The notes beneath the pieces are model-generated. The model saw only the letters and a list, made by a program, of their open reading frames with translations, made no database searches and had not been told where the DNA came from. Below, piece by piece: positions 10,490-56,890 of a stretch of 64,000 nucleotides of DNA (position 1 is the stretch's first letter; each line of letters opens with the position of its first letter). This DNA is from Lunularia cruciata (taxonomy: Eukaryota > Streptophyta > Marchantiopsida > Lunulariales > Lunulariaceae). The stretch lies in NCBI GenBank assembly GCA_948567375.1, contig OX419761.1:22544243-22608242 (forward strand), in the 5' to 3' direction. The translations under genes were made by a program, and so were the position numbers.

Positions 10490-11298
10490 CTCAAGGACAA
10501 GATAAACAAACTCTGCAAGGGACACAATGAAACCATGCAAGCAATTATTCAATGATTTCAATACATATCATCAATAATTACACCAACTCTAGATCATACA
10601 ATGACTCTCAACTTGTTTGAAGATGCACTAGTTGAGGATATCCCAAAATTCCTCATCTACAACAAAGCTACTACATTAGCTCAAGCATTTGAGGAAGCAC
10701 AATGTTGGGCTCAAGCTAACAAGAGAAACATAGACTTACTAGATCCTTGCTCTATAATAACAAGATTCCAAAAGAATGTAATGCATAACCCCTATGTTGT
10801 TACTCAAGGATTCCAGCCACCAAGTTACTTCCATGGAAGAACTCTTGTAATTCCACCAACTCAATATGTAATCCTGCAACCAATGCCTATATACAATTAC
10901 ATGCATATAGCAATGCTTGCAATTATTCTTATAACTCTTCCAACTCTATAAGAACTTACCACTCCCATACCTTTCAATGTCCCAATAGCAAATACCGAGA
11001 TGGAGGACATCATGGTATAGTTAGAATGATTGAAGAATCTTCACTTAGCACAACAACCTCTAGAGAGAAACCAAATGAACATTGTTGCTCATGGAAAGAT
11101 TTCATCTATTCATTGTCTAGGATGGTAGGATACAAATGCTCAGTGTGCCACTCTTGACATTCCCATTTACTATGTCTATTGTGGGAAGTAATGACATATA
11201 ATGGCTCATTGTAGAACACTTAAGAGATACCAAGAACCTTGAGAAGAAATAGCACATGTTGTGAATATTGTCCCATAGCACAACAACTTCAACCAACA
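10490..11298 (+). pseudogene. Retrotransposon gag fragment with a zinc-knuckle remnant
   Basis: The plus strand encodes a capsid-like stretch (10601–10951) with the pattern LVEDIPKFLIYNKATTLAQA followed by FEEAQCWAQ, typical of gypsy gag just before the nucleocapsid. About 200 bases later a broken CCHC remnant (YCGK..HMAHC-like) is readable near 11180–11215. Stops interrupt both. It abuts E3 at about 11299, where similarity to E1 starts abruptly. It belongs to another element or arose by recombination, because E1 gag does not match it. Confidence 0.55.
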
Positions 11299-11760
11299 CT
11301 TGGGAGAGCAATATTATACCCCATGGGTTTCAATATTGAATATTAGGAGGAGATATCCTCCTATAGACCAAGTTGGCAGTCAAGTGAAGGATGAGTATGT
11401 CACCTACCAGTATGCTTCAATAATGGCAATCTTGGCTCACTATAGTCTGGGACCATGGCAACATCAGTTTGAGCTTTCAGTGGGTCTATTCCTTGGCCTA
11501 GTGATTTATTGGAAGGGAATATCCATGTAGAAGATACTCTAATAGTAGAGGAGATCACTTGGATTTGGAGTAAGAGTGGGATGGTTCCATCTATCTTGGA
11601 TGTTCCATTGTGGAGTTCAGAGGAGGCATTGCAACAACATGCAGATCAGTTGGTGCAACAAGCTTGGAATGGAGCCTTTGTACTACCAAGAGACCAATGT
11701 GAGTATGAGCCTCTAGAGTTGATTACCTTGATATCTTTGGATACCACAATCATTCTTGGT
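11299..11760 (+). pseudogene. E3 protease C-terminal region and linker
   Basis: Matches E1 22199–22680. The frame 11509–11772 reads EGNIHVEDT...LDVPLWSSEEALQQHADQLVQQ, almost the same as E1. Here a Gln codon (CAA) stands where E1 has TAG at 22557. The catalytic DSGA part is missing because the copy is truncated upstream. Confidence 0.7.
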
Positions 11761-12760
11761 AGTATCCAATAGAGGGAGTATTTCTATTGGAGTTGTTTGG
11801 TGGGATTAGTATTGGACTAGTTGCGGTACTACATGTCAATATACGAGTACAAAGGTACTTATATGTGGAGAAAGATGAGACTACTAGGTGAGTCTCTCTA
11901 CATTATGTGGCACACTTGGCCTATTGTTATCTTGAGTTATTACCAATATTAGCCAATCATAGGTTACCAAAAGACCCTACCCACAAAAATTTCCTTATTG
12001 GGAGCGCAAGATTCGGAGAGACATGGTCCTATTTATTTGGTGATTTATGGATGGTCATGTTAGGGATATACACGTATTGGCCAAGGTTTGGGTCTTCAAG
12101 ATCCATGTTCTGGTATATTTTGGGAGATGTTACATATACTACGGCATCTCTAGGTTCATCAATCCATTTCTCCAACTTACATTCCCGAGAACGTCCCTTT
12201 GATAGGAGATTCTTGCACCCAAGTGGTGACAAGTACATATCAAGTCCATTCTTGGATGGGACCTACCTTGTTGTTGGATGTAGCTAGAGTGGGATCATGG
12301 GCTCATTGTCTTCATCTTTGGTGGATGAACATCTTACCCAAAGAGGTTCTACAATGCATTTATGATGGGATTCAACAACTTGACCACTTTATTATTGATG
12401 AGATTTTGGATGTTATGCACCAATCTCAGATGGTGGTAGTGGCTGATAGGTCACCTATGGTAGTGGTGAACCTAGTTGGACAACCCCAAGCTACTTTTCC
12501 CACTCTTATGAGCTTCCCAGGCTTTCATGCTTTTTGAGAGGGAGGAGATCTTGGACTTGTTTGGGACTCACAGTTACAACAATTGGTGGAGCCCAACACC
12601 AATGATAAGGAGTGGGCGATGGGTTTTTGGATTGGTATTATTGATGTTCTAGAAGTGTTAGAGGCATCTATGCATCAAGTGCTAGGTCAAGCTATGGACT
12701 TGAACTATTTGACCTGGATTGTAAGCCAAGGCTCACAATCCAGAACATGGCAGAGCAATG
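11761..12760 (+). pseudogene. C5-cytosine DNA methyltransferase domain in a retrotransposon (E3)
   Basis: Across two frames the translation shows the ordered motifs of the DNMT/Dcm fold. Motif I is LLELFGGISIGL (~11789–11824), followed by YVEKDET as the motif II acidic region. Motif IV has GWSC with the catalytic Cys codon at 12058–12060, directly followed by TAG where Gln of the usual PCQ is expected. Then come GLGLQDP.SGIFWEML, motif VI ENV (12187–12195), and a motif VIII-like GSWAHCLHLWWMN. A C-terminal part carries NDKEWAMGF (motif IX-like) and QVLGQAMDLNYLTWI (motif X-like). The family methylates cytosine C5 in DNA. A frameshift near 12000, three internal stops and P→S in motif IV mean this copy cannot be active. 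It sits between protease and RT. Confidence 0.8.
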
Positions 12761-13019
12761 GCAGAGCAACATAGGATGTGCTTGATAGGCATCACCACTC
12801 GGACACTTGTGAGCTCTATGTTTATCAAGACGATTCAAGCAAATTCTGGGGGCAATGGATCAAGTGGACAATGTGTTCTTGAGATACATCTAGTGGCAAT
12901 TAGTGAGAGTGGTCTACTTGGAGTCCATCTAGGTGAGCGTGGTCTACTTGGATTACACCCTTGGTCTACTTGAGATGCAGCTAGAGGACGTATGGAGCTT
13001 GCAACCAAAGTGAAGGGAG

Positions 13020-14480
13020 TTTTTCACATGGAGGTTGGGACCTCTAGTAATCGGGGGCATGATACTATTGCTCCCAAGGGCCCAGTGTAGTAGCCAATGA
13101 GTATGTCTTCCACTCCTACAACACTTATAGAGGATACTTGGGAGCCAGATCTTGGACCTTTGCTTATAGGAGGAGAAAGACAGAGAGTTTGGAGGTTCTT
13201 GAGGTGCTACGTGAGTTGTTTGCCTTCAGTATGAGGGATTTGGGTGCTCTAAAGCAACATGGTATTTGGATTGAGCTTACTAGTGATACATAATTTTTCA
13301 ATGTCCCTATAGAAGTATTGATATGGAGCAAGCATTCAGAGCTAAAGTAGAGTCCTTTTTAAGGCTAGTTTGGTGGAGATTTCACATGGAGAGTATGCAT
13401 CAGCTACAATGATGCCAACCAAGAAAGATATGCATGGAAAATACAAATAGGTGGAGATTGTCATCTTATCAATCGATAGACTAGGGCTGATTGGTATGCC
13501 ATGTCTCTATCGGAAGAGATCTTTGATGCGATTGGGCATGCAAAGGTCTTTGATACTTTGGATCTTTGAGCAAGATATTATTAGTTTCCAATCAAGGAAG
13601 AGGATAACTCCAAGACAACATTTGGGCTATTGGTCCTCATGACAACAATGTGTTATATCAATGGAAGTTCTTTCCATTAGGGTTGAAGAACACTCTTGCC
13701 AAGTTCCAAAGGATCATGAACAGGATCCTAACTAGATTGGATTTTGCTCGGTGTTATATTGATGATATTTTGGTCTATAGCACTATTGTGGAGGAGCATA
13801 AGAGACATTCGTTGGATGTGTTTGAGAGGTTGAGATCTCATGGACTCAAATTACATCTTGGGAAGTGTAGGTTCTTCCATGAGCAGGTTGAGTATTTGGG
13901 TCACACTATGTACCTTGGAGGACTTGCTGTTCAACAGACCAAGGTGGAGGCCATTGCACGTGTTCCTTGGCCTACATATGTGACCAAAGTGTGAACGTTC
14001 CTTGGATTGGTGAACTTCTATCACCATTATATTAGAGGCTTTAGTGCCATTGCCAAGGTCTTGACAAAGCTGACCAAGCTTACATAAGAGTGGCGTTAGG
14101 GAGATGAGCATGAGAGAGATTTTGTAGAGGTCAAGGAGAGGTTGACATCTGCTCCTATTTTGAGGAGACCAATCAGAGGATGACCATTTCAGGTTTACTT
14201 TGATTGGAGTATGTTGGAGCTTGGAACAATGCTCACCAAACATGATGATGAGGAGAAGGAGTTTGAGGTGGCCTATGCTAGTTGCCCCAATAATTCAGCA
14301 AAGGCAAAGTATAGTTCATACTAGGGAGAGTGCTTGGTAGCAGTATGGGCAGTAGCACATTTTTTATGTTACTTATTTGGTAACCCCTTTACTCTCATCA
14401 TTGATCATCTGCCTTGAAGTGGTTGATGGAGTCCAACAACCTTTCAGGAAAGCTTACATGATGGGCTCTAATTTTACAAG
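13020..14480 (+). pseudogene. E3 reverse transcriptase and RNase H
   Basis: RT is readable from a GALK-type N-terminal block (13190–13290) through CYIDDILVYSTIVEEHKRH (YIDD active site near 13760), then EYLGHTMYLGGL and the LGLVNFYHHYIRGF connection. RNase H follows, with HEKEF/E and SYxGECL-like blocks (14190–14470). Frameshifts near 13640 and 14400, and several stops, break it. The order and spacing match E1 at 23300–24790. Confidence 0.75.
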
Positions 14481-15960
14481 AGTATGATTTCATGGTTATT
14501 TGTAGACCTAGAGTGGTGAACTATGATGCAGATGAGTTGAGTAGAAACTCATATCTCGGTCAACAAGATCCGACCAAAGCACGTTGGCATGGTGAGATAG
14601 ATAAGGAGTTGGTGCCGGGTTGGCATGCATGTGCCTTTTTATGTATATTTTTTGAGGCTGTGGTGGTATCTCTCTTAGTGCACACAAGAGTAGTTATTGA
14701 GGTCATAGATCCAGAGAGTGGAGAGAGTGGTATAATTCAGCAAGACATTCATGATGATGTCTTGTTGATGGACTATCTTTGCATTGGTGTTATGGGTGGC
14801 ACAATTGAGGCCAAGGAGAGAGACCATGTTCTTTAGTGAGCCAAACGGTTCAGATTGGAGGGCAGACACCTTCTACATGTATGGAGGATGGTAGAGTGTG
14901 AATAGTACCACTTCCATCTCAAAGATCACAATTGGTTTGTTATGCTCATGAGGAGCTAGGACATTTTGGAGTAAAGCATATAAATAGTTTACTCTAGAGT
15001 CATTATTGGTGGCACAATGAGCAGACCAATCTATAGTAGTTTGTTGCCAGATGTGTGGTTTGTGATCAAGTTAGAGCATCATTTAATGCTCTTACATCAC
15101 AATTACACCCATTACCTATCATGGGATTGGGTCATTACCCATTGGAGTTTGGATTTCATTGGACCTTTACCATTGACTGTGAGACATCATTGGTATGTTT
15201 TGGTGATGGTTGAGGATCTTCAAGTGGATTGAGTTGGTGGCACTTCTTGACAAGTCCAATGAAGGGATAGTTTAGTCATTTTGGTGCGCCCATTGAGGTT
15301 TTGATTGATTAGGGTACAAAGTTCTTGGGAGAATTTAGGTCTTGTGTGACAAGGCTTTGATTGATCATCATACTACCTCCCAAGATCACCCTAAGGCAGA
15401 TGGCTTAGCAAGTGATTTAGAAAAGGAAGAGAGGATTGAAAAAGTATGGTTTGCAAAGAGGCCACTTAGGAGATTGGGATCTCTAATTACCTTGGTTAGC
15501 TATGGACTATCGGTTAAGCCAACAAGCCTCCTTAGCATCATTCTCTCCTTACTTTCTAGTCTATGGACAAGATCCAAATTTACCTATAGCCATTTATTGA
15601 GATGCTACTATAGTGTTGGACTTGGATGATCTAAATGTATGGATGAGCGCATGTTCTCAACAAGCATAGATCTTTTAGAGAGTGATGCCAATGGCCTTTG
15701 AGAGCTTGGTGATTGCTCAACATAGGGATACCTTACGCTATGCTACCATTCAAGGAGGAGGTTATAGACCCTTGATTTGTTGATTTCATCTAGGTGACTA
15801 TGTATATCTACATCAGATAGTACCAATGACACTTGGTATTTCTATGGGCTGCACTAACTTGAGAGTATAGAAGGTTTTGCCATCTAGAATCCTTGTGTTG
15901 GAAGGATGTGATGGTGTTGTTTGGAAGGATCATGTGCGCAATTGTGCACCATGCCACCTC
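14481..15960 (+). pseudogene. E3 integrase
   Basis: Matches E1 24690–26200: the post-RNase H spacer (HARVVIEVIDPESGESG), an HHCC zinc-binding remnant (HAHEELGHFG, C..VCDQV) around 14945–15070, LDFIGPL with the first catalytic Asp (~15155), and a decayed DDE core. The block after TDQGT lacks about 90 bases compared with E1, so the core is internally deleted. The C-terminal part reads on into the PHD segment. Confidence 0.7.
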
Positions 15961-16160
15961 CCAAATATTGATAGTGGTACTATGGACCCAAGCTTGGCTC
16001 TTGTATGTATAGGCTTGAAGTGTATGTTATGTTGCTCTTTTGGTGGAGTTGCTACTATGTTAGTGTGTGATAGCGATTTGGGAGGATAGCATACAGCATG
16101 TTAGACTCCTCTCCTCACAATGGTTCCTTAGGGATAATGGTTATGTCCTAAATGTACTTG
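15961..16160 (+). pseudogene. E3 C-terminal PHD finger, broken
   Basis: Shows KCMLC, LVCDSD, a stop where Trp-His should follow, and WLCPKCT, collinear with the intact PHD finger of E1 at 26265–26399. The third zinc pair has lost its second Cys (CDSD), and two stops interrupt it. Confidence 0.65.
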
Positions 16161-16331
16161 ACCTAAAGCTAGTTCATCCTTTATATGGCATAGATTGCAA
16201 ACAAGCGACTAACAATGATGCTTGATAGCACCCGGCCTCTTGATCTTTTGCACACCATAGGCTATACCATATACTTGGAGTAGATGGCTATTTGGAGTAA
16301 GAGGGACCCAACCTCCAACTAGGGAGGCAAT

Positions 16332-17005
16332 TGTGGCACTTGAGAATCCATGTATGACTTATGTGTGAGTTGTGCTTCTATAGTGTGTGATGTTGACAAT
16401 GATGTATATTGTGTAGCTATATACGCATGACAACTATCAGACCATTTGAAACTTCACACCTAGATTGCTCAGACTTTGGAGTAGTAGTGTTGGTAGTCAA
16501 GAGTATCTTAGCAGTTACTCATAGACTACTTATTGCCAGTCAAATTTTGTGTTTTGGGTATTGACTGTCATATTTTGTGTTTTGGGTCTTGACTATATGG
16601 TGGGGCCCATTGTCACTTAGCATAAAGCACACCGTTGGATGTGTTTTCAGTGAGATTGTAAGGGTTAGAAACCAAAGGGTATACTTTTGAAGTACAGCTC
16701 AAGGGAGCTCACTTCTTTAATGTTGAGCCTTTGAGTTCTTGGTTATGGTGGATAGAGGCCGGTGAGCATCACCTGGATCTCTAAGCTAGAGTAGGTGTGG
16801 CTTGGTTGTAATCAATGTCTAGTTGTTGGCAAATTATGGAGTGACAGATCAAGTATTGATCTGATTGAGTGTGATTTGAATTGTGTAAACAAACTGATTA
16901 TTGTGGCATTGAGAGTCCATGTATGACTTATGTGTGAGTTGTGCTTCTATAGTGTGTGATGCTGACAGTAATGTATGTTGTATAGCAATGTATATACGCA
17001 CAACA
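16332..17005 (+). repeat. E3 3' terminal repeat, u–core–u arrangement
   Basis: A ~100-base segment u (16332–16432, TGTGGCAC...CGCATGACA) is followed by the LTR core (16435–16900, TATCAGACC...CTGATTA) and a second u (16902–17005, TGTGGCAT...CGCACAACA). A purine-rich GGGAGGCAAT precedes the first u. The same arrangement is seen in E1, E2 and E5. Confidence 0.75.
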
Positions 17006-17997
17006 CATATTAGGAAGAGTGTTTGGCAACAATATGGGCAATAACACATATCTGATGTTACCTATTTGGTAACCTCTTTACTCTCATCATTGATCATCAA
17101 CCTCTAAAGTTATTGATGGAGTCCGACAAGCTTTCAAGGAAGCTTGCACGATGGGCTCTGATTTTACAAGAGTATGATTTCATAGTTATTCATAGACCTA
17201 GAGTGGTGAACCGTGATGTAGATGGGTTGAGTAGAAACCCATATCCTAGACAATAAGATTAGATTAGAGCATGCTGGCATGGCAAGACAAATGAAAAGAT
17301 AGTGCCAAGTTAGCATGCATTTACCTTTCTCTTTATATTTTTTGAGGCTTTGGTGGTATCTCTCTTAGTGCATAAAAGAGGAGTTAGTGGTACAATTCAG
17401 CAAGACATTCATAATGATATCTTAGTGAGAGCTTATCTTTGCATTGGCGTTGTGGGTGGCACAGTTGGGGCCAAGGAGAGAGGCAATGTTCTTCAACAAG
17501 CCAAACGGTTTAGATTGGAGAGTAGACATATTCTTCATGTATGGGAGGATAGTAGAATGCAAGTGGTACCACTTCCATCTTAGAGACCATTGTTGGTCCA
17601 TCATGCTCATGAGGAGCTAGAAAATTTTGGAGTAAAGAATACATATAGCTTACTCTAGAGTCTATTGGTGGTGCAATATGCAAACCAATGTATAGTAGTT
17701 TGTTGTTAGATGTGAGGTTTGTGACCAAGTTAGAGCCTCATTTAATACTCCTACACCATAGTTACATCCATTACCTATCATGGGATTGGGTTACCATTAA
17801 AGTTGGGACTTTGCTGGACCTTTACTATTGACTATAAGACATCATTGGTGTCTTTTGATTATGCTAGAGCACTTCTCTAAGTGAATTGAGTTTGTAGTAC
17901 TCCCTAACAAGTCAAGTGAAGGGATGGCTTACTCATTCTTGGATTGGGTTCTCAGTCATTTTGGTGCACTAGTTGAGGTTTTGACTAATCAAGGTAT
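17006..17997 (+). mobile_element. Element E2, left part (RNase H to integrase), split by E1
   Basis: Matches E1 24536–25560: an RNase H tail (DHQPLKLLMESDKL-like, VNRDVDGLSRNP), the integrase zinc-binding block, and the first part of the integrase core, ending TTTTGACTAATCAAGGTAT. Translation resumes at 27099 (GTATAGAGG...), so E1 sits inside E2. The left end abuts the 3' end of E3, and upstream domains are missing. Confidence 0.85.
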
Positions 17998-18442
17998 TGT
18001 CACGCCATTTGTAGTTCCGCGTCTAGATGCTCGGACACTGGAGTTCCAATGATAGTAGTTAGAGTTATTTTAGTAGTATCTCAGAGACTACTTTTTGACG
18101 GTCAGATTTGGTGTTCGGGGTACTGACTTCACGGTGAGGCCCAGCATCACTTTGCACCGTTTGCACCATCGAGTGCGCCGTCAGCGGGACCGTTAAGGTT
18201 CAGGGCTAGCTCGAGTCCAGGGGGTATAGTTTCGAAGTGAGCTCCAAAGAGCTCACTTCTCTGATGTTGAGCCTTCGAGTTCCTGGCTATGGTGGACAGA
18301 GGCCGGCGAGCGTCACCTGGATTCTCTATGCTTGAGTGGGTGTGGCTTGACTGTAATCAGTGCCCAATTGTTGGCAGTTTATAGAGTGGCAGATACTGAT
18401 CTGAGTTGAGTTGAGTGGAGAATGTTAAGCAATCTGATTACA
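17998..18442 (+). repeat. E1 5' LTR (core)
   Basis: TGTCACGCC...CTGATTACA, matching the core of the 3' LTR (26682–26993), which lacks ~135 bases between two CGAG motifs. Unlike the 3' copies it has no u segment on either side. Sequence after 18442 is unique leader. The true 3' limit of the 5' LTR is therefore uncertain and could lie further downstream. Confidence 0.7.
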
Positions 18443-19084
18443 TCAAAGAAGTGAAGTTAGAGGGAAATCGGGTGCAGGAACGTTGAGTGTTGGTAGTATC
18501 TCCAAGCTCGGTGGATCATGGTAGCTCGATTCAAGTTTTGTGTTTCCCTAGTGTGTAGAAGCTCGTTCAATTGATGCAAATTTGGCAATTAGGCGGACAA
18601 TGTGCGGAAGCGCTGGCCAAATTTCGAGCAAAGAAGGAGCAATTTTCAAGCAGTGTTGTGATTTTGAGCTCAAGAGGTGAAGGCAAGACCAATTTGTTGC
18701 GAGTTGGGCTCAGAAAGTGAAATTGAAGGTGGAGTTGGGAAGCTTTTCTCATGAAATTGTAATTTGGAAAAACCCGTTTTGTCAATTTGGCTCGAGTGGA
18801 AAGTTAGCGGGGGATTTGGCAGACATCCATCTTTAGGGTTTACGTTAGATTTTATGTCAGATTTACATCAGATTTTGGGCCAAAATTGGAGGAGTTTCGC
18901 TGTTTGGCCAGATTTGGAGAAGTTTCGCTAGTTTGGAGGCGTTTCGCAGATTTGGAGAAGTTTCACCAATCTTGGAGGAGGTTCGAAGTGGCAACAAGAA
19001 AGTCCTCATTTGGCTGAATTTTGGTGTTTCGAGGCTTCGAGGCACAGGGCTGTGGGCTATGAGAGGCTATGAAGGCCTAGAAGG

Positions 19085-19106
19085 GCCAGCAAGCCAGCTT
19101 GCTGGC
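19085..19106. other. Perfect hairpin in E1 leader
   Basis: GCCAGCAAG and CTTGCTGGC form a 9-bp stem with a CCAG loop. It could be a structured leader element (for example packaging or dimerisation). The role is inferred only. Confidence 0.5.
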
Positions 19107-19179
19107 GTGAGACTAGCTAGTTTAGAGTAGATCTTGGTCATTGGTTAGCAAAATCTGCCTTTCTTGCTAGATTATGCGC

Positions 19180-19242
19180 AACAGGGTTTGACCCCTAGAT
19201 CTCTTGTTCCTAGACTGGTGCCCTAGCCAACTGGTCCACCCT
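19180..19242 (-). other. tRNA-like (SINE-head-like) segment
   Basis: On the minus strand, TGGACCAGTTGG (19238–19227) matches the tRNA box A consensus at 11 of 12 positions by eye, and GGGTCAAACCC (19194–19184) resembles box B and the T arm. The spacing of about 33 bases is that of a tRNA. The acceptor stem is not evident, so this is a decayed tRNA pseudogene or SINE head rather than a tRNA gene. Confidence 0.4.
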
Positions 19243-19784
19243 CACTTGTTGTCCTAGTGATTGCGACACTGTTATCTATACACATGTAGCTTTGGCTAGG
19301 GGAGGCAGTTTGATCCCATTCTTGGTGATCCTGGTAGCTTAGGACCTAGATACGAATTGCTCTTACGTCAAATGCCAAATGGTGGCAGAGTCAGTCCCGT
19401 GTTGTGTTATGAGATGGAGGGTTTTCGTTTAGATTTCTTGTGATTGGATCCCCTCCATTCTCTACTTCCTGTTTGTGCACCACGTTTGTGTGAGGTGCCT
19501 TGACTTTTGAGCATTGGTGCTCTGGTGTGCTCTTGGTGGTGAGGCTGGAGTGATGACCAGTCAAACTACCTTTGTTTCTCTTCGGTGAGGCAGGAAGTGA
19601 TGACCTGCAGACCGTGAGAGTGCATGTTATGATGGCAGGATACAGGTTGCCTTTCCTCTAGTGTAGTTATCTCGGTTAGAGTTACATTAGTGGGTGGTGT
19701 CTAGTTGGTGTTGGCACGTGGTGGGGCACTTGCGGTTGCGACTTGCGGTTGCAGTTGGTGGTTCGGGTTTGTTGTTGCAATTAC

Positions 19785-21910
19785 ATGGTCACGACGGAGT
19801 TCTTTGGAGATTCCAGAGAAGTTAGCCCTGCAGTACGCAGTGGGTTTACTCGGAGTGGTGCTCGGTATCAGCCTGTATCTCAGGTCCCAGTGAGGGAGGA
19901 GATTGACTCTGAGTTGGAGTTCGACACAGGAGCTGATTCAATTGAGAGTGCACTTGGTGTGTCCGCACCGTTGTTGTGGGACATGGACGAGATTTATGGA
20001 GCCTCCAAAGGCCCTAGGCGTTACTCTGGTACAGTGGGTACCATTGAGTTGGATGACTTCATCCAGGAGTTTGATAGTTGGTGTGATCTACAGCAGATGC
20101 GGAACCCAACTTTGTTCACACCCTTCATGGCATGGAAGGGGTTGTTCCAGCATCTGGAGGGTCCACCGATGGATGACTACCATGAGTTCAAGAGAGCTCA
20201 TTTAGAGGAGATTGAGTTATGGAGACAGTATTGGTCTCCACACTATGTCTCCATTACTTCAGGTTCGGTGGCTAGGAGTAGATCGGCTGTACCCACGAGT
20301 TCTAGCTCGAGTAGTGTTAGTGGAGCTAGTGGAGGTGCACTAGCTGGAGATAGTGCTACTACGAGTGGAGGTACCGCTGCAGGAGGTGGTGTGGTACCGG
20401 GGTTTAACCCCATGGTTGAGTTCTTCCTATATTTGAGGCAGAACTACCAAGGAGTGCGGATTGATAAGCTGAGGAGCTTGCAGGAGTTCCAGTAGAAGGC
20501 TGGAGAGAGCCTACGCAAGGCATATACTCGCATGAGGCGGCTGATCAGTTTCACTCAGGGAGTTACTAAGGCCCAGGCAGTCCAGTTTTGGTATGGGATA
20601 CTGGACAGGGAGTTGCGACGTAGAGTTTGTGATGCTACGTTGTTGCAGGCTACTTCACCCACTTTGGCAGTAGTCTTTGGTTTGGTTGAGCGTATTGAGC
20701 TCAACATGGTGGAGGAGAGAGTGGTGACAGCTGGATTTGGTAGAGAGACCTCATCCACGGTTGTGACTTCTTCTAGAGTGCAGCAGAGTGCACCACGCCC
20801 AGTTGGTTTTTGAGGACAAGGTGGACAGCCCAGATCCTATGGAGCGAGTGGAAAGCCTAGTGGAGTTAGACCCTTACCCTCATTTTTGGGTCAACAACAG
20901 CCAGTGAGTGGTGGTGTTGCTTGTTGGACTTGTGGTGGACCTCACTATAGGAGAGAGTGTACTCAAGGCAGCGGACCTGATACCTTTGGTGCATCACAGC
21001 CAGCATAGAGGCAGTGTGAGCACTGCCACAGATTTGGTCACACTAGTGACCGGTGTTTTGACCTACACCCGGAGTTACGGAGTGGTAGGGCTGCTATGGC
21101 AGGTAGTAGAGGAGCTCCAGTTCATGGAGGACGAGGTGGTAGAGGTGGTGGTAGAGGATCTACACCTAGTAGGGGTGCAGTACCTGCCCTTACTTCTGAC
21201 ACAGCTATGGCTACTCGGATTGAGCAGTTGGAGTAGAGATTGGCTAGTATGGCTATTGCTCAGAGGAGATCAGATTCGGGATGCATCCACCTCATATGCT
21301 GGTGATAGAGATGCTTTGGACTTCATGTGCGGAGTAGCACAGGTGGATGCATCTGCAGCAGTGACTAGGAGTGCAATACGTGCTCCAGAGCCTAGAGGAG
21401 CATCAGTGGAGTTGGACCCACAGAGAGGAGAGGTTGAGAGACAGGTCAGACTTCTCCAGTCTTTCACGCTATCTGAGGCATTACAGACGACATCCATGGT
21501 TCCTAGACGGCCCAATGCAGGTGTGGTAGGTGGTGATGGAGTACATGATGGACTACTTGCTAGTCAACCACCTACTACTACACAGATTGAGTCTAGCATG
21601 ATGTTAGGGGCGGCTCAGCTGATTATGCGGCATCCTTTGTTTTCAGCCAGTGACATGTTTACATTGGGAGTTGACCCAGCCCCAATGTTCCGGTTGGCTG
21701 CCATGTTGTCTGAGAGTAGGGATGGTGCAGTTCCTACTACTAGAGCAGAGGTGGTTGGTAGTGGATCTGACTTGGTTGAGGAGCATGGGATCCGTTCAGC
21801 GACCAGTGGTTTATGGCAGGCAGCAACGGCTAGACTCGAGGAGTTGCCAGCTAGACCGGCCTTTGAGAGAGCGCGGTTTACAACACCAGACAACACCAGA
21901 GGGGGATCTT
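19785..21910 (+). pseudogene. E1 gag with two CCHC-type zinc knuckles
   Basis: Starts at the ATG at 19785 (MVTTEFFGDS) and encodes a capsid region (IELDDFIQEFDSW..., then AGESLRKAYTRMRRL and FWYGILDRELRRRV). A nucleocapsid follows with CWTCGGPHYRREC (C-x2-C-x3-H-x4-C) and CEHCHRFGHTSDRC (C-x2-C-x4-H-x4-C), then a Gly/Arg-rich GGRGGRGGGRG tail. Stops: TAG 20493, TGA 20811, TAG 21006, TAG 21234. The frame changes by +1 near 21250 and continues open to 21963 (DASTSYAGDRDALDF...), then by −1 near 21900 into protease. The last change might be a natural gag–pol frameshift or plain decay. Gag forms the virus-like particle and binds element RNA. Confidence 0.8.
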
Positions 21911-22560
21911 TTGTTTGGTGGGACCTTCAGGGAAGGTCTATACACCACAGAGAGTCTTGTTAGACTCTGGTGCGCAGCCCCTTATGTTGGGGAAGGCTGC
22001 AGTTGTTGGTCTGGAGTTACGGAAGACCGATGTGGAGAGGTGTCCATTTCAGATCCAGACATCTCTTGGTGGTGGTTCGACACAGTACATCACACATGGA
22101 GAGCTTGTTGTCCAGGTTCGGCCTGGTCATCCGACTGATAGCTCGGTGGTGAGAGCTCAGGCTATTGCAATGATAGCTGAGTCATATGATGTGCTAGTTG
22201 GGGGAGCAGTGTTATACCCTATGGGTTTCAACATTGACTATTGGGAGGAGACAGCCTCTTATAGACCTGGTTGGCATTCTGGTGAGGGACAGGTATGTCG
22301 CCTACCAGTACGCTTCAGTAGTGGCAGTCTTGGCTCACTACAGTCCGAGACCATGGCAGCATCAATTTTGGCTTTCAGCGGTGCAGTTACTTGGCCTGGT
22401 GACTTGTTGGAGGGGAACGCCCATGCAGAGGATACTCCAGTACCGGAGGAGATCACTCGGCTATGGAGTACGAGTGGGATTGTTCCATCCACCTTGGATG
22501 TTCCATTGTGGAGTTCAGAGGAGGCATTGCAGCAACATGCAGATCAGTTGGTGCAGTAGG
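21911..22560 (+). pseudogene. E1 aspartic protease and linker
   Basis: VLLDSGAQPLMLGKAA carries the retropepsin DSGA active site (~21957–21975). DVLVGGAVLYPMGF, about 70 residues later, is the second conserved block, so the domain has the usual ~100-residue size. A linker rich in Glu follows (EDTPVPEEITRLW, SSEEALQQHADQ). TAG at 22557 interrupts a frame that stays open on both sides; E3 has CAA there. The protease cleaves the Gag-Pol polyprotein. Confidence 0.8.
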
Positions 22561-22965
22561 CTTGGAGTGGAGCATTCGTACCATCAGGGGATGAGTGTGA
22601 GGATGAGCCTCCAGAGGCGATTGCTTTGACACCTCTGGATACCACACTCATTGCTTGGCAGTACCCAGTAGAGGGGATATGCCTATTGGAGTTGTTTGGT
22701 GGGATCAGCACCAGACTAGCTGCATTTCCCACACTCATGAGTTTCCCAGGCTCTCATGCTTTTTGAGAAGGAGGACTTGGACTTGTTTGGGACTCACAGT
22801 TATAGCAATTGGTGGAGCCCAATGCTGATGAGAGAGAGCGGGCGATGGGTTTTCGCACCGGTATTACCGCTGTTCGAGCAGTGTCAGAGGCATCCAGGCG
22901 TCAGGTGTTAGGTCAGGCTATGGACCTGAACTATTTGACCTGGATTGTGAGCCTTGGTTTGGCAG
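22561..22965 (+). pseudogene. E1 methyltransferase remnant with an in-frame internal deletion
   Basis: Motif I LLELFGGISTRLAA (22683–22724) passes in frame straight into FPTLMSFPGSHAF, which in E3 lies ~220 codons further on. Motifs II–VIII, including the catalytic Cys and ENV, are gone. The rest of the C-terminal part is intact: PNADERERAMGF (motif IX-like) and RRQVLGQAMDLNYLTWI (motif X-like). The junction (about 22719–22726) lies at GCTGCA, which resembles GTTGCA-type sequence at the other end, suggesting slippage or microhomology. Stops TGA 22764 and TAG 22803; the TGA is shared with E3 and E5. This protein cannot methylate DNA. Confidence 0.75.
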
Positions 22966-24412
22966 AGCAGCGTAGGATGCGCTTGATAGGCATCACCACT
23001 CGGACACTTGTGAGCCCTGTGCCTATCGAGACAATTCAGGCACATGCTAGGGGCGATGGACCGAGTGGACATGGTATTCTTGGGACACATCCAGTAGCTA
23101 CTAGGGAGAGTGGTCTACTTGGAGTCCATCCAGGTGAGCGTGGGCTACTTGGATTACACCCTTGGTCCACATGGGATGCAGCTAGAGGACGTGTGGAGCT
23201 TGCAGCCAGAGTGGAGGGAGTTTTTCACCTAGAGGTTGGGACCTCTAGTGGTCGGGAGCATGACACAATTGCTCCCAAGGGCCCAGTGTAGCAGCCAGTC
23301 AGTATGTCTTCCACTCCTACTACAGTTATTGAGGATACTTGCGAGCCAGATCTTGGACCCAAGCTTACTGGAGAGGAAAGACGGAGGGTTTGGAGGTTCT
23401 TGAGGAGTCACACGAGCTGTTTTGCCTTCAGTATGAAGGATTTGGGTGCTCTGAAGGGACCTGGTATACAAATTGAGCTGACTTGCGACCACACCTGTTT
23501 CTCCGACGTCCTTATTGATATAGTGATATGGAGAGGACATTGATTCAGAGCCGGAGTAGTGACCTTTTTGAGGCTGGTTTGGTGGAGATTTCACATGGAG
23601 AGTATGCATCAGCGACAGTGATGCCAGCCAAGAAGGATATGCATGGCAACTATACAGATAGGCGGATGTGTGGAGATTACCGTCCTATCAACTGACAGAC
23701 CAGGACTGATCGGTATGCCATGCCTACACCGGAGGAGATTTTTGATGCGATTGGGCATGCAAAGGTCTTCATTACTTTGGATCTTCGAGCAAGATATCAT
23801 CAGTTGCCAATCAGGGAGGAAGATAAGTCCAAGACAACATTTTGGGCTATTGATCCTTACGGCAAGGATGTGTTATATCAGTGGAGGTTCTTACCATTTG
23901 GGTTGAAGAACGCTCCTGTTGAGTTCCAGAGGGCCATGGATAGGATCCTAGCTGGATTGGATTTTGCTCAGTGTTATATTGATGACATTTTGGTCTATAG
24001 CACTACTGTGGAGGAGCATGAGAGACAATTGTTGGAGGTGTTTGAGAGGTTGAGATCTCATGGACTCAAACTACATCCTGGGAAGTGTAGGTTCTTCCAT
24101 GAGCAGGTTGAGTATTTGGGTCACACTATCTACCCCGGAGGACTTGGTGTTCAGTAGACCAAGGTGGAGGCTATTGCACGTATTCCTCGGCCTACGGATG
24201 TGAGCATAGTGCGAGCATTCCTTGGGTTGGCAAACTTCTATCGCCGCTATGTTAGAGGATTTAGTGCCATTGCCAAGGCCTTGACGAAGCTGACCAAGCT
24301 TACACAGGAGTGGTGTTGGGGAGATGAGCAAGAGAGAGCTTTTGTAGAGCTCAAGGAGAGGTTGACATCTGCTACTATTTTGAGGAGACCAATCAGGGGA
24401 CGACCATTTTAG
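22966..24412 (+). pseudogene. E1 pol linker and reverse transcriptase
   Basis: A linker of about 110 codons with the repeat GLLGVHPGERGLLGLHP leads into EDTCEPDLGPKLTGEERRRV and a DLGALKGP block. After a frame change near 23490 the RT core is readable: VMPAKKDMHGNYTDRRMCGD, LDLRARYHQLPIREED, FLPFGLKNAPVEFQRAMD, QCYIDDILVYS with the catalytic YIDD at 23975–23986, and EYLGHTIYPGGL. The thumb region is FLGLANFYRRYVRGFSAIA. Stops: TAG 23289, TGA 23516, TGA 23693, TAG 24155, TAG 24410. E3 or E5 keep Gln or Arg codons at most of these. RT copies element RNA into DNA. Confidence 0.85.
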
Positions 24413-24790
24413 GTTCACACTGATTGGAGTATGTTGGGGCTTGGAGCGGTGCTCACCCAGCATGATGATGAGGAGAAGGAGTTTGTGGTGGCCTATGCTA
24501 GTTGCTCCAACAATTCAGTGGAGGCGAAGTATAATTCATATGAGGGAGAGTGCTTGGCAGCAGTTTGGGCAGTAGCACATTTCCGATGTTACCTATTTGG
24601 TAACCCCTTCACTCTCATCATTGATCATCAACCGCTGAAGTGGTTGATGGAGTCTGACAAGCTTTTAGGGAAGCTTGCACGATGGGCTCTGATTTTACAT
24701 GAGTATGATTTCACGGTTGTTCACAGACCTGGAGTAGTGAACCGTGATGCAGATGGGTTGAGTAGAAACCCATGTCCCAGCCAGCAGGAT
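24413..24790 (+). pseudogene. E1 RNase H
   Basis: VHTDWSMLGLGAVLTQ has the first acidic residue, NSYEGECLAAVWAV the Glu, and IDHQPLKWLMESDKL the next Asp, followed by the HRPGVVNRDADGLSRNP tail. This is the normal order and spacing for gypsy RNase H, which removes the RNA strand during reverse transcription. No stop lies inside this part; the frame is open from 24413 to 25321. Confidence 0.85.
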
Positions 24791-26054
24791 CAGACCGGAG
24801 CACGTTGGCATGGTGAGACAGATGAGGAGATGGTGTCAGGTTGGCATGCATCGGCCTTTCTGTGTATATTTGCAGAGGCTTTGGTGGTATCTCTCTCAAC
24901 GCATAGAGGAGGAGTTATTGAGGTCACAGATCCAGAGAGTGAAGATATTGGTACAGTTCAGCGAGACATTCATGATGATGTCTTAGTGATGGACTATCTT
25001 CGCACAGGTGTTGTGGGTGGCACAATTGGGGCCAAGGAGAGAGACCGTGTTCTTCAGCAAGCCAGACGGTTCAGATTGGAGGGTAGACACCTTTTGCGTG
25101 TATGGGAGGATGGTAGAGTGCGAGTAGTACTACTTCCATCACAGAGACCACAGTTGGTCCGTCATGCTCATGAAGAGCTAGGACATTTTGGAGTAAAGCG
25201 TACATATAGCTTACTCCAGAGTCATTATTGGTGGCGTGGTATGCAGACCGAGGTACAGCAGTTTGTTGCCAAATGTATGGTTTGTGACCGAGTTAGAGCA
25301 TCATGCAATGCTCCTACGCCATAGTTACATCCATTACCTATCATGGGATTGGGTTACCGTTGGAGTTTGGACTTTGCCGGACCTTTAACGCTGACTGTGA
25401 GACATCATCGGTATGTTTTGGTGATGGTGGAGCACTTCTCCAAGTGGATTGAGTTGGTGGCACTTCCTGACAAGTCTAGTGAAGGGACAGCTTACTTGTT
25501 CCTGGATCAAGTTCTTAGTCATTTTGGTGCACCAGCTGAGGTTTTGACTGATCAGGGTACATAGTTCTTGGGAGAGTTTCAAGTCTTGTGTGACAAGGCT
25601 TTGATTGATCATTGTACTACATCCCGAGATCACCCTGAGGCAGATGGCTTAGCAGAGAGAGTGGTTCAGACGGTGAAGAGAGGATTGCAAAAGTATGGTT
25701 TGCAGAGAGGCTACTTGGGAGATTGGGATCTCTAGTTACCTTGGTTGGCCATGGGCTATCGGTTCAGCCGGCAAGCCTCCTTAACATCCTTCTCTCCATA
25801 CTTTCTACTCTATGGACGAGATCCAGATTTACCTGCAGCCATTCGTCGAGATGCTATTGTAGTTTTGGACTTGGATGACCCCAATGTATGGATGAGCGCA
25901 TGTTCTCAGCGGGCAAAGATCTTTCGGAGAGTGATGCCAATGGCTTTTGAGAACTTGACGATTGCTCAGCATAGAGATACTTTACGCTATACTACCATTC
26001 GAGGAGGAGGTTATAGACCTCGATCCGTGATTTCATCCAGGTGACTATGTATAT
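24791..26054 (+). pseudogene. E1 integrase
   Basis: After a variable spacer comes an HHCC zinc domain: HAHEELGHFG (~25163) and CMVCDRV (~25274). The DDE core follows: LDFAGPL (first Asp), VLTDQGT (second Asp, ~25549) and ADGLAERVVQTVKRGLQ (Glu, ~25654). Then comes the C-terminal region with FSPYFLLYGRDPDLPAAI. Stops: TAG 25322 (E5 has CAA), TAG 25562, TAG 25733. A one-base deletion near 26030 moves the frame before GDYVYLQQ. Integrase inserts the cDNA. There is no chromodomain; the C-terminus leads instead into a PHD finger. Confidence 0.85.
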
Positions 26055-26405
26055 CTACAACAGACAACACCGATGACACTTGATGTTTCTACAGGCCGCA
26101 CTATCTTGAGAGTGAGCGAGGTTTTGCCATCTGGAGTCCTTGTGTTAGAAGGACGTGATGGTGTTGTTTGGAAGGATCATGTGCTCAATTGTGCGCCATG
26201 CCACCTCCCAAACATTGATGGTACTATGGACCCAAGCTTGGCACTTATACGTGCAGGCTTGAGGTGTATGTTATGTGGCTCTTCTGGTGGAACTGCTACT
26301 ATGTTAGTGTGTGATAGTTGTTCAAGAGGATGGCATATGGCATGTATGACTCCTCCCCTCACGGTGGTTCCTCAAGGATAGTGGTTATGTCCTAAATGTA
26401 CTTGA
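26055..26405 (+). pseudogene. E1 integrase tail with C-terminal PHD finger
   Basis: About 70 codons (TTPMTLDVSTGRTILRVSEV, then LVLEGRDGVVWKDHV) lead into a complete C4HC3 finger at 26265–26399: CMLC, 11 residues, CDSC, 4 residues, HMAC, then WLCPKC. The Trp two residues before the last Cys pair is the usual PHD signature. A single TAG (26379) interrupts it just before WLCPKC; the natural stop is TGA at 26403–26405. PHD fingers commonly bind histone H3 tails. Placed on an integrase C-terminus, it probably guided insertion to certain chromatin, as chromodomains do in chromoviruses (inference). Confidence 0.85.
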
Positions 26406-26563
26406 CCTATAGCTAGTTCATTCTTTATATGGTATAGATTGCAGACAGGCGACTAACGATGGGGCTCCATAGCACCCGGCCTCCTGATCTTTGCCCATTA
26501 GAGGGTATACCATATACTTAGAGTAGATGGCTATCTGGAGTTAGAGGGACCTAACCGCCAGCT

Positions 26564-26681
26564 AGGGGGGCGATTGTGGCACTTTAGAGTCTATGTATGA
26601 CTTATGTGTGAGTTGTGCTTTTATAGTGTATGATGTTGACAATGATGTATGTTGTGTAGCGATGCATATACGCACGACAGC
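26564..26681 (+). promoter_or_regulatory. E1 polypurine tract and first u segment
   Basis: GCTAGGGGGGCGAT is the only purine-rich tract near the 3' LTR and should prime plus-strand DNA synthesis. It is not next to the core LTR start (TATCACGCC, 26682). It directly precedes a 105-base u segment (26575–26679, TGTGGCAC...GCACGACA), which occurs again at the end of the element (26994–27098). Confidence 0.6.
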
Positions 26682-27098
26682 TATCACGCCATTTGTAGTT
26701 CCGCATCTAGATGCTCGTACACTGGAGTTCTAGTGATAGTAGTTAGAGTTATTTCAGTAGTATCTCAGAGACTACTTTTCGACGGTCAGATTTGGTGTTT
26801 GGGGTACTGACTTCACGGTGGGGCCCACCGTCACTTTGCACCGTTTGCACCATCGAGCGTCACCTGGATTCTCTATGCTTGAGTGGGTGTGGCTTGACTG
26901 TAATCAGTGCCCAGTTGTTGGCAGTTTATAGAGTGACAGATCAAGTACTGATCTGAGTTGAGTTGAGTGGAGAATGTTAAGCAATCTGATTATTGTGGCA
27001 CTTTAGAGTCTATGTATGACTTACGTGTGAGTTGTGCTTTTATAGTGTATGATGTTGACAGCGATGTATGTTGTGTAGTGATGTATATATGCACGACA
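26682..27098 (+). repeat. E1 3' LTR (core plus terminal u)
   Basis: The core matches 17998–18440 apart from a ~135-base deletion bounded by CGAG in the 5' copy. It is followed by the u segment (26994–27098) ending GCACGACA directly before the GTAT target duplication. If both element ends are genuine, the LTR is TGTCAC...GCACGACA, but the 5' LTR lacks the u end. Confidence 0.7.
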
Positions 27099-44032: not shown

Positions 44033-44199
44033 AGAGTTCCATGTAGTGATTGACCGTATGGGAGGAGGAGATATTTAGTGTTTGGAATTTCCAAGAATAG
44101 AGATAGAAGAGACTCCAAAAGTCGAGTGAAAGTTGGAGTTTCAGAAGGGTAGAAGATCAAAGAGAAACATTCTTACTGCCGGGGCAAAAACAAGGAATG
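44033..44199 (+). mobile_element. Repeat family G, copy 4, first piece
   Basis: GAGTTCCATGTAGTGATTGACCG aligns with G3 at 59137–59160, inside the G coding region. Interrupted at 44199 by G copy 2; the copy continues at 47865. Confidence 0.6.
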
Positions 44200-53212: not shown

Positions 53213-53640
53213 AACCTCTTACCCAAAGTGGTTATACAACATGCTTATGATAGGATTTAATGACTAGACCACCTTTTTGTTGATGACATCTTGGATGTTG
53301 AGCACTTATCTCAGATGATGGTAGTGGTTGATAGGTCAACTATGGTAGTTGTGAACCTTGTTGGATAACCAAAAGTTGCTTTACCTACACTTATGATTTT
53401 CTCAAGCTCCCATGCTTTTTGAGAGGGAGATCATGGACTTGTTTGGGACTCATAGTTACAATAGTTGGTGGAGCCCAATGCCAATGACAAGGAGTGGGAA
53501 ATGGGTTTTTGCACTGGTATTACCACTATTAAAGCAAAGCCAAAGGCATCCAAGGATTAGATGTTAGGTTTGGCTACGGACCTGAGTTGTTTGACCTGGA
53601 TTGTGAGCCTTTGCTAAGTAGAGCAACATAGGATGGGCTT
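53213..53640 (+). pseudogene. E5 methyltransferase C-terminal part
   Basis: Matches E3 12330–12760: LLPK, then FVDDILDVEHLSQMMVVVDR and SSHAF, the same TGA after HAF as in E1 and E3, then NANDKEWEMGF and a degraded motif X region. It shows that this subfamily also carried the domain. Motifs I–VIII lie outside this truncated copy. Confidence 0.65.
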
Positions 53641-54839
53641 GATAAGCATCACTACTCAAACACCTATGAGCTTTGTGCCTATCAAGAAAATGTAAGCACA
53701 TGTTGGGGGTGATAGACCATGTGTGTAGGGTATTCTTGAGACACAGCCAATGGCTACTTGTGAGAGTGGTCTACTTGGGGTCCATCCAAGTGAGCATGAT
53801 CTACTTGGGTTACACCTTTGGTCTACTTGGGATGTAGCTAGAGGATAAATAGAGCTTGCAACTAGATTGGAGGGAGTTTTCTACATTGAGGTTGAGACCT
53901 CTAGTGATTGGGGGTATGACACTATTGCTTCCAAGGGCCCAATGCAACAACCGATCAGTATATCATCAATTACAAGGGATACTTGGGAGCTAGATCTTGA
54001 ACCCAAGCTTACAAGAGAGGAAAGATGGAGAGTTTGGAGGTTGTTGAGAAGCTACACAAGTTGTTTTGACTTCAATATGAAGGATTTGGGTGCTCTAAAA
54101 GGACTTGGTATTTGGATTGAGTTGACTAATGATACATCAATTTTTTGACATCCTTATAGATATAGTGCCATGAAGAGAGCACTGATTTAATGCCAAAGTG
54201 GAGACCTTTTTGAGGTTGGTTTGGTGGAGATTTCACATGGATATTATGCATCAACTACAATGAGCAAGAAAGAGCTTTTATAGAGCTCAAGGAGAGGTTG
54301 ACATCTACCCTTTTTCTTAAGAGACCAATCAAAGGACAACCATTCCAAGTTCACACTGATTGGAGTACGTTGGAGCTTAGAGCAATGCCCACCCAGCATG
54401 ATGAGGGAGTTTGTGGTGGCAGTGCTAATCACTCCAACAATTCAGAAAAAGTGAAGTATAGTTCATATGAGGGAGAGTGCTTGGTAGCAATATGGACAGT
54501 AGCACATTTATAATGTTACCTATTTGGTAACTCCTTCATTTTCATCATTGATGGAGCCCAACAAGCTTTAAGGATGCATACAAGAGAAGTTATTGAAGTC
54601 ACAAATCCAAAGGGTAAAGATAGTGGTATAGTTTAGCAAGACATTCATGATGATGTCTTAGTGATGGATTATCTTTGCATAGGTGTTGTGGGTGGCACCA
54701 ATTGGTGCCAAGGAGAGAGATTGTATTCTTTAGCAAGCTAGACAGCTTAGATTGGAAGGTAGACACCTTCTTTGTGTATGGGAAGATGGTAGAGTGTGAG
54801 TATTACCACTTCAATCCCAAAGACCACAATTGGTCCATC

Positions 54840-56094
54840 ATGCTCATGAGGAGTTAGGACATTTTGGACTAAAGCATACATATAGCTCACTCAAGGGTCA
54901 TTATTAGTGGCATGGTATGCAAACTAATATACAATAGTTTGTTGCCAAATGTGTGGTTTGTGACCAAGTTAGAGTATCATTTAATGCTCCTATGCCACAA
55001 TTAAACCCATTATATATCATGGGATTGAGTTACCATTGTAGTTTGGACTTTGCTAGACATTTATTATTGACTATGAGACATCTATGGTATGTTTTGGTTA
55101 TGGTAGAGCACTTCTCCAAGTGGATTGAGTTGGTGGCACTTCTTGACAAGTCTAGTGAAAGGACGGTTTACTTGTTCCTAGATTGGGTTCTTAGTCATTT
55201 TGGTGTACCAACCAAGGTTTTGACTGATCCAGGTATAGAGTTCTTGGGAGAGTTTCAGGTCTTGTGTGACAAGGGTTTGATTGATCATTGTACTGCTTCT
55301 TGAGATCACCTTGAGGCAAATGGCTTAGTAGAGAGAGTGGTTCAGATGATGAAGAGCGGATTTCATAAGTAAGGGATGCAAAGAGGCTTCTTGGGAGATT
55401 GAGATCTCTAATTACCTTGGCTAGCCATGGGCTATTGATTCAGTTGGCAAGTCTTCTTAACATCCTTCTTTCCTTACTTTCTATTGTATGGGCAAGATCC
55501 AAATTTACCTGTAGCCACTTGTCAAGACGCTACCGTAGTCTTGGACTTGGATGATCCAAATGTATATATGAGCGCATGTTCTCAATGGGTAGAGATCTTT
55601 TGGAGAGTGATACCGATAGCCTTTGAGAACTTGGCAATTGCTTAGCATAGGGATATCTTATACTATGCTACTATTACTTTCAAGGAGGAGGTTATAGAAC
55701 CTCAATTTGTAAATTTCATCTAGGTGATTATGTATATCTACAACAAATTACACCAATGACACTTGATGTTACTACAAGCCGCGCTGTCTTGAAAGTGCAT
55801 AAGGTTTTGCCTTTGGGAGTCCTTGTGTTGGAAGGACATGATGGTGTTGTTTGGAAGGATCGTGTGTGCAATTGCATGCCATACCACATCCCAAACATTG
55901 ACGGTACTATGGATCCAAGCTTGGTACTTGTATGGGTAGGCTTGCGTTATATGTTATACGGCTCTTCTTGTGGAGCTGCTACTATGCTAATGTGTGATAA
56001 CTATTTGAGAGGATGGCATATGGCATGTTTGACTCCTCCCCTCATGGTGGTTCCTCAAGAATAGTGGTTATGTACTAGATGTACTTGACATATA
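54840..56094 (+). pseudogene. E5 integrase and PHD finger remnant
   Basis: Integrase: HAHEELGHFGLKHTYSSL, CVVCDQV, LDFARHLL, VLTDPGI, then a damaged Glu region. At 55264, CAA and GAG-like codons stand where E1 has stops. PHD (55930–56094): the first Cys pair is lost (YMLY), but LMCDN.LRGWHMAC and WLCTRC are kept. Confidence 0.7.
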
Positions 56095-56262
56095 GCTAGG
56101 TCACCCTTTATATGGTATAGATTGCAGACAAGCAACTAATAATAGGGTCGTTTTGAAAATATCCGGCCTCCTAATCTTTGCACACCACAGGATATACCAT
56201 ATACTTGGAGTAGATAGCTATTTGGAGTTAGAGGGACCTAAACGCCAACTAAGGTGGAAATT

Positions 56263-56890
56263 TTGGCACTTTAGAGTTCATGTATGACTTATGTATGATT
56301 TGTGCTTCTATAGTGTATGATGTTGATAACATGATAAATGTCACTATATTTGTGGTGTTGAAGCTAGATTGCTTATACATTGGAGTAATAGTGTTGTAGT
56401 TAGAGGTATTTTGGTAGTTACTCATAGACCACTTGTTGATGGGCCAATTCATATTTGGGATATGAATCACATGGTGAGACTCATTGTCACTTGTACCGTT
56501 TGCACCGTCACATGTGCCATTAGCAAGACCATTAGGGTTGGAGACCTAGGTCAAAATCAGAGGTATAACTTCAAAGTGCAGCTCTAGAGAGCTCACTTCT
56601 TTGATGTTGAGCCTTCAAATACTTGGCTATGGTGAATAGAGGCTGGCAAGTGTCACCTAGAGTCTCTTAGCTAGAGTGGGTGTGGCTTGATAGCAATCAA
56701 TGCTAGATTGTTGGTAGAGTGATTGAGTGAATGATCAAATACTAATCTGTTTGAATGTAATTTGAGTTGATGAAGAACTGATTATTGTGGCACTTTAGAG
56801 TTCATGTATGACTTATGTATGAGTTTTGCTTCTATAATGTATGACGTTGACAGTGATGTATATTCTATTGTGATGTATATATGCATGGCA
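56263..56890 (+). repeat. E5 3' terminal repeat (u–core–u)
   Basis: A shortened u (56263–56336), the core (56339–56785, TGTCACTAT...CTGATTA) and a full u (56786–56890, TGTGGCAC...GCATGGCA). The core starts with the canonical TG here. Confidence 0.7.

Follow-up and report, generated by a model that had tools for sequence, protein, structure and literature searches.

A decayed DNMT3-type methyltransferase domain in a Ty3/gypsy-type retrotransposon of the liverwort Lunularia cruciata and its unbroken copies in the same genome

The closest described relative of the element reported here is KnitGypsy-Dnmt3 of Klebsormidium nitens, a retrotransposon with a DNMT3-class methyltransferase that is described as acquired in that lineage (de Mendoza et al. 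2018, PMC5890265). The same paper presents SymbioDIRS-Dnmt3 of Symbiodinium, two copies of which were demonstrated to perform de novo CG methylation in yeast, and gives K. nitens fewer copies than Symbiodinium (PMC5890265). Retrotransposon DNMT3s of streptophytes and dinoflagellates are mentioned in a 2025 survey (PMC12344493), while no land-plant DNMT3-bearing Gypsy elements were found described in the titles, abstract beginnings and text passages of open-licence PMC papers covered by the literature search. Here, we analysed a stretch of 64,000 nucleotides of the liverwort Lunularia cruciata (contig OX419761.1, positions 22,544,243 to 22,608,242; referred to as the window), in which a Ty3/gypsy-type element carries a decayed DNMT3-type C5-methyltransferase domain at 11784..12774, recognized by its motifs, the matches of its relatives and dN/dS (ratio of nonsynonymous to synonymous substitution rates) comparison. 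All features given below lie on the forward (+) strand and are numbered from the first nucleotide of the window.

A first-pass annotation had placed methyltransferase motifs in 11761–12760, and all of them were located as claimed. In the copy concerned (copy A), LLELFGGI (motif I, 11784–11807) and YVEKDE (11862–11879) are read in frame 3, which extends to approximately 11975. From approximately 11962 onwards, the domain is read in frame 1 with GWSC*G (motif IV, 12049..12066), ENVP (motif VI, 12187..12198), WWMN (within 12307–12330), AMGF (within 12613–12627), and LGQAMDL (12682–12702). Four internal stops and one frameshift interrupt the domain. In a tblastn search of the raw DNA, performed without joining of matches and with sum statistics off, the domain of one relative (P0063) scored 281 bits (E 1.5e-88) at 11962–12720 and 66 bits at 11787–11975, as opposed to at most 24.6 bits when 20 shuffled windows were searched, which rules out a chance resemblance. 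The top of 60 proteins (770 candidates) was P0001 with 57% identity across the whole read (E 2.9e-109), and PF00145 was found in many of the relatives that match copy A. Copy A itself, searched against Pfam-A in five separate pieces and as a read-through, gave no DNA_methylase match, and the best match of the read-through among PDB sequences was non-significant (DNMT3A, E 0.21). Since copy A is too decayed to provide such proof, the profile match expected for its translated frames failed to appear, and a Pfam test on this copy alone would mislead.

Within the family, motifs I, IV (PC), VI (ENV), VIII, and X of C5-methyltransferases occur in unrearranged order, with motif IV broken in copy A. 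The domain is nearer to DNMT3 than to DRM, DNMT2 or bacterial enzymes, and the catalytic Cys and Glu as well as the Arg of motif VIII are near-invariant over 101 domain rows. Matching of the relatives' polyproteins to the window gave the element order gag, protease, methyltransferase, reverse transcriptase (RT), RNase H, integrase, and PHD finger. The order protease–RT–RNase H–integrase, with a DDE integrase following RNase H, is that of Ty3/gypsy elements. Judged by its sequence, the domain is a C5-cytosine methyltransferase of the DNMT3 class in a plant Ty3/gypsy-type element, and the claim of the first-pass annotation that a plant Ty3/gypsy element carries a C5-methyltransferase was supported. 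Identity to the catalytic domains of animal DNMT3A/3B is as low as ~19–26%, and in contrast to fish DNMT3, which bears PWWP and ADD upstream of the domain, the element has its PHD finger at the far integrase end. Plant DRM methyltransferases are likewise DNMT3-related (PMC6453930); however, their motif order is rearranged (PMC5890265), whereas the present domain is colinear and its profile matches one part of DRM only. Another plant Gypsy element with a captured nucleic acid modification enzyme has been described in Phalaenopsis, but this enzyme is an RNA (m6A, N6-methyladenosine) demethylase that was captured separately (PMC9289625).

The window contains three methyltransferase-bearing copies of the element: copy A, complete but broken; copy B, in which the core is deleted; and copy C, with the C-terminal two-fifths. 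As read from their sequences, none of the three could make the enzyme. In the genome at large, P0001 was searched against 565,766,749 bases in 74 contigs; 111 of 13,362 first-look candidates were scored, so that the resulting numbers are a lower bound. Matches were obtained at at least 111 genomic places, all with 72–74% identity over nearly the full query, and 10 of the 111 scored places had an open frame of at least 1428 residues with a stop-free match. The first eight loci, which lie in two orientations, are 98–99.5% alike within each of two comparable sets. Among the matches listed, over the longer stretches, they are 94.8–96.7% identical to copy B, ~83% to copy A, and ~80% to copy C, indicating that window and genomic copies form one family. 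From a domain sample of 28 loci (these eight and the next best 20), 26 could be parsed and two were dropped as the start anchor was not found; having been taken from the best-scoring rows, the parsed copies are biased towards unbroken ones. GWPCQG and ENV, and hence the catalytic Cys and Glu, were kept in all 26, RLR.WWTN in 22, and the methyltransferase domain was free of stops in 18. Unbroken methyltransferase domains thus exist in other copies of the same genome.

Selection on the domain was assessed by comparing one unbroken domain (L002, an arbitrary choice) to 11 older copies. In all 11 comparisons dN/dS of the domain was 0.22–0.51, with an upper bootstrap limit below 1 in 10 of them. 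The values for RT were 0.23–0.40 (10 of 11 copies giving an RT row), and those for protease, where changes are few, 0.27–2.13. At the protein level, the domain exceeded protease in similarity in 10 of 11 pairs, and it exceeded linkers and tail in all pairs for which these were measured. Among the window copies, values outside the domain were 0.42 for the protease linker, 0.90 for the tail, and 0.92 and 1.16 for the PHD finger. The 11 comparisons of the domain support the view that it has been kept by purifying selection, a check on same-genome relatives that had been proposed at the outset; for the KnitGypsy-Dnmt3 domain, dN/dS below 0.2 is given in PMC5890265. The first-pass claim that the domain was a stable part of the family is weakened by the other window copies, which retain remnants, one of them lacking the catalytic core. 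Observed/expected CpG ratios were 0.46 for the L002 domain, 0.21 for copy A, and 0.05 for copy C in one comparison; in another, limited to the window, copies A and C were strongly depleted (0.17 and 0.15) relative to copy B (0.41). Differences between copies A and B are mainly transitions (445 of 591).

The predicted position of the domain between protease and RT stood, with the correction that a stop codon precedes RT in the parsed genomic copies. In 25 of 26, TAG followed by CAG occurs ~105 codons past the domain segment, and the sequence is TAG CAG CCA or CTA in 24. Within the window, copy A has a TAG at the same place (13088..13090, read TAG TAG CCA) and copy B a TAG between methyltransferase tail and RT (23289..23291) followed by CAG CCA, which conforms to UAG-CAR-YYA, a context known to promote read-through in tobacco mosaic virus and related viruses (PMC5382211, PMC2754532). 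Behind the TAG, RT resumes in the same frame in all eight copies in which it was read. The open reading frames of relatives end 64–149 residues past the domain in nine of ten cases, and the tenth goes through into RT. The stop and the ends of the relatives' frames indicate that the Gag–protease frame has the methyltransferase as its C-terminal domain, and that RT, integrase, and PHD finger would need read-through. The domain is consequently separated by the TAG from RT and does not share the Pol polyprotein reading frame, as it does in KnitGypsy-Dnmt3.

A total of 171 proteins were collected as relatives, a single DNMT3 from fish and a handful of distant enzymes included. In 33 of them, among these proteins of liverworts, Sphagnum, and K. 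nitens, the methyltransferase follows the protease; in 38, it lies between RNase H and integrase. In 13 more the methyltransferase is followed by integrase with RT missing from the piece, including P0144 of the prasinophyte alga Cymbomonas tetramitiformis, and 87 consist of the domain alone. A domain tree of 74 rows separated an after-protease clade (26 rows with support 95, the window copy and K. nitens among them) from a clade of the RNase H/integrase type (45 rows, support 89). P0153, of the after-protease kind, fell outside its clade on a long branch with unsure placement in both trees, and P0144 also formed a long row in the domain tree. The RT–RNase H–integrase tree (38 rows) agrees, with only four rows of the after-protease kind. 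A PHD finger occurs in 25 of the 38 RNase H/integrase-kind proteins, in the window copies, and in two of the 33 after-protease proteins, many of which end before the PHD place. The simplest reading would be a single capture with a later change of position. Scans of IMG/VR with P0001, P0099, and A1 found no relatives. One protein, P0164, is a different Gypsy polyprotein with a Tf2-1-like SH3 end, in which the methyltransferase lies between RNase H and integrase and is far off in the tree; its methyltransferase is perhaps a further capture.

The element shares with KnitGypsy-Dnmt3 the Gypsy domain set, an unrearranged methyltransferase domain of the DNMT3 class, and repeats arranged as A-coding-B-A-B (PMC5890265). 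The K. nitens protein P0134 (KFL_009030040) has the order protease–methyltransferase–RT–RNase H–integrase and belongs to the same methyltransferase clade as the window copy. In contrast to the K. nitens element, the present one resides in a land plant with at least 111 copies of the domain, has 4-bp target duplications that could be demonstrated, and carries a UAG between methyltransferase and RT, through which P0134 reads as annotated. A further difference is the PHD finger that follows the integrase, a region in which P0134 is incomplete, and "PHD" does not occur in the main text of PMC5890265. With SymbioDIRS-Dnmt3 it has in common a DNMT3 domain in a retroelement with A-coding-B-A-B repeats; the latter, however, has a tyrosine recombinase, a DIRS RT, and a dinoflagellate host (PMC5890265), whereas a Gypsy RT and a DDE integrase are found here. 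In the view of de Mendoza et al., the K. nitens element arose by an independent capture within this algal lineage (PMC5890265). The position, the split repeats, and the methyltransferase clade common to K. nitens and the liverwort and moss elements argue for a methyltransferase lineage that is older and wider than K. nitens alone. What was known already is the kind, a DNMT3-bearing Gypsy element; to this the present analysis adds a new host group, copy numbers, a leaky-stop context, a PHD finger, and a wider line of descent. Beyond the first-pass annotation go the DNMT3 class, the unbroken genomic copies, and, again, PHD finger, split repeats, and stop context.

The termini were determined on 13 sampled copies. 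The 5' end consists of A (449 bp) and the 3' end of B1-A2-B2 (~109, 449, and 107 bp). The 3' B-A-B was present in 11 copies, one copy stops at B1, and one is without a detected 3' repeat; in one further copy of the 13 the 5' repeat was not found. With B-A-B at the 3' end and a lone A at the 5' end in place of two identical long terminal repeats (LTRs), the element is by its termini not a plain LTR element, despite TG..CA ends and 4-bp duplications. The 11 copies with both ends have the termini TGTCA[C/T]GCC ... ACGACA, and each is flanked by a 4-bp target duplication, identified by eye (ACTT, CCTA, ACTT, CACT, CCTC, CCTA, CATG, GCAT, AAGG, CATA, CTTT); copy B has GTAT on either side. DIRS/PAT retrotransposons are not known to make target duplications. 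The element is distinct from them by these duplications and by a DDE integrase in place of the tyrosine recombinase. A copy ending at B1 without A2-B2 (L021/L022) is nevertheless flanked by an ACTT duplication, which would fit either recombination between B1 and B2 or integration of the copy in this shortened form. A1 and A2 of the same copy differ by 0.7–1.8% in 10 copies (56 transitions, four transversions), which points to young insertions and to a decay that would be of the type arising from methylated cytosines. DNA methylation is a weapon with which hosts silence transposons, and in the present case the writer itself is borne by a plant element that is both young and abundant.

Our preferred reading, which we hold to be probable, is that 11784–12774 is the decayed DNMT3-type domain of a Ty3/gypsy-type retrotransposon whose unbroken genomic copies are predicted to be active and likely to methylate the element's own new DNA. 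The UAG would be leaky, so that Gag–protease–methyltransferase would be made in excess and RT–integrase–PHD by read-through. The methyltransferase may be packaged in the particle and act on the complementary DNA (cDNA), probably at CG by analogy to the SymbioDIRS enzymes (PMC5890265). Methylated cDNA might gain by resembling host DNA or by protection prior to integration, and the PHD finger, nearest by sequence to those of CHD4, PHF12, ubi-d4, ATXR5, KDM5, and PHF21A, could read histone H3 tails at integration sites and guide integration. Several observations weigh against this reading. The enzyme of KnitGypsy-Dnmt3 gave no methylation in yeast, an outcome its authors term inconclusive (PMC5890265). 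None of the eight loci read over ~4.1 kb is fully open beyond the common TAG; each has at least one more stop or break, so that no fully intact element was observed among them. Off-frame controls for the 11 older copies gave 0.39–0.68 in one frame and 0.61–2.72 in the other, indicating a downward bias of the dN/dS method, even if the true-frame value lay below the low control in all 11. Comparisons restricted to the window copies gave mixed values, with 0.24 (A/B) and 0.63 (C/B) for the last part of the methyltransferase next to those given above for linker, tail, and PHD finger. The stop is absent at the corresponding place of copy C; the near identity of the genomic copies (98–99.5%) reduces their common stop context to few independent events; and K. 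nitens P0134, which as annotated is without a stop from methyltransferase through RT, indicates that a leaky stop is not general. Finally, copy B is without a catalytic core, yet its two ends are present and a target duplication flanks it. It was inserted either prior to the core loss or without its own enzyme, and it is possible that the enzyme was supplied in trans or was not needed.

It is unlikely, in our view, that the DNMT3-type fold is no longer a DNA methyltransferase and has been retained for another task such as RNA or cDNA binding or RNA modification. The silence of the K. nitens relative in yeast (PMC5890265) and the low identity to DNMT3A/3B structures would agree with such a loss, but the near-invariance of Cys, Glu, and the motif VIII Arg over the 101 rows, with Cys and Glu present in every parsed genomic copy, argues against pure binding, which would not need these residues. 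No more probable is an enzyme that chiefly methylates host or rival DNA rather than element cDNA, thereby limiting its own copy number or disturbing host silencing. A host-benefit role and genome-wide effects are discussed in PMC5890265, and the window copies are CpG-depleted; however, host silencing alone also predicts this depletion, and the position of the domain in the Gag-side reading frame would suit packaging. That the similarity arose by chance, or that a host DNMT fragment once fell into a retrotransposon, is hardly conceivable: the read-through alone is without a Pfam or significant PDB match, but at least 111 genomic copies, the same order in liverworts, Sphagnum, and K. nitens, and dN/dS below 1 already refute it.

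The preferred reading, self-methylation by a DNMT3-type enzyme, can be extended to a scenario that we put forward tentatively and regard as rather doubtful in its entirety. A retroelement with split repeats would lately have invaded a land-plant genome. It would pack its own de novo methyltransferase of the DNMT3 type together with Gag and carry a histone-reading PHD finger on the integrase, each copy methylating its own cDNA and landing by reading chromatin. All would belong to one methyltransferase lineage, acquired a single time by a Gypsy ancestor in green plants, which from green algae to liverworts would have occupied two places in the element, either behind protease or between RNase H and integrase. 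Predicted proteins of Marchantia bear the whole domain, and as Marchantia is a laboratory plant, the question why a retrotransposon would methylate DNA is opened to direct testing.

The remaining parts of the three window copies were assigned by matches to relatives and by repeat comparison. Copy A comprises the protease end and the protease–methyltransferase linker (11278..11670, matched by P0084 and P0062), an RT–RNase H part (13641..14414, P0069), an integrase part (14890..15770), a decayed PHD finger C-terminal to integrase (15970..16158), and the 3' repeats (16330..17005, with B1 at 16330–16432, A2 at 16563–16900, and B2 at 16900–17005). Copy B, with both ends, split repeats, and the GTAT duplication, spans 17998..27098 and sits in an older copy of its own family, parts of which lie at 17006–17997 and 27099–28743. 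It begins with the 5' A repeat (17998–18440), followed by gag with four stops (19983..21260), a methyltransferase remnant (22683..22928), RT–RNase H–integrase (23507..26020), the PHD finger (26217..26402), and the 3' repeats B1, A2 (gapped), and B2 (26573..27098). The remnant results from an in-frame loss of ~220 codons at ~22720, which removed the part between motif I and the motif IX region and left a shortened methyltransferase reading frame. Copy C consists of the methyltransferase part with seven stops (53213..53602) and of integrase, PHD finger, and B-A-B repeats (54686..56885). Integrase–PHD fragments of the same family with B and A repeats also occur at 42848–44037 and 27355–28743, and direct repeats of ~220–440 bp that are 88–98% alike are located at 36325–37386.
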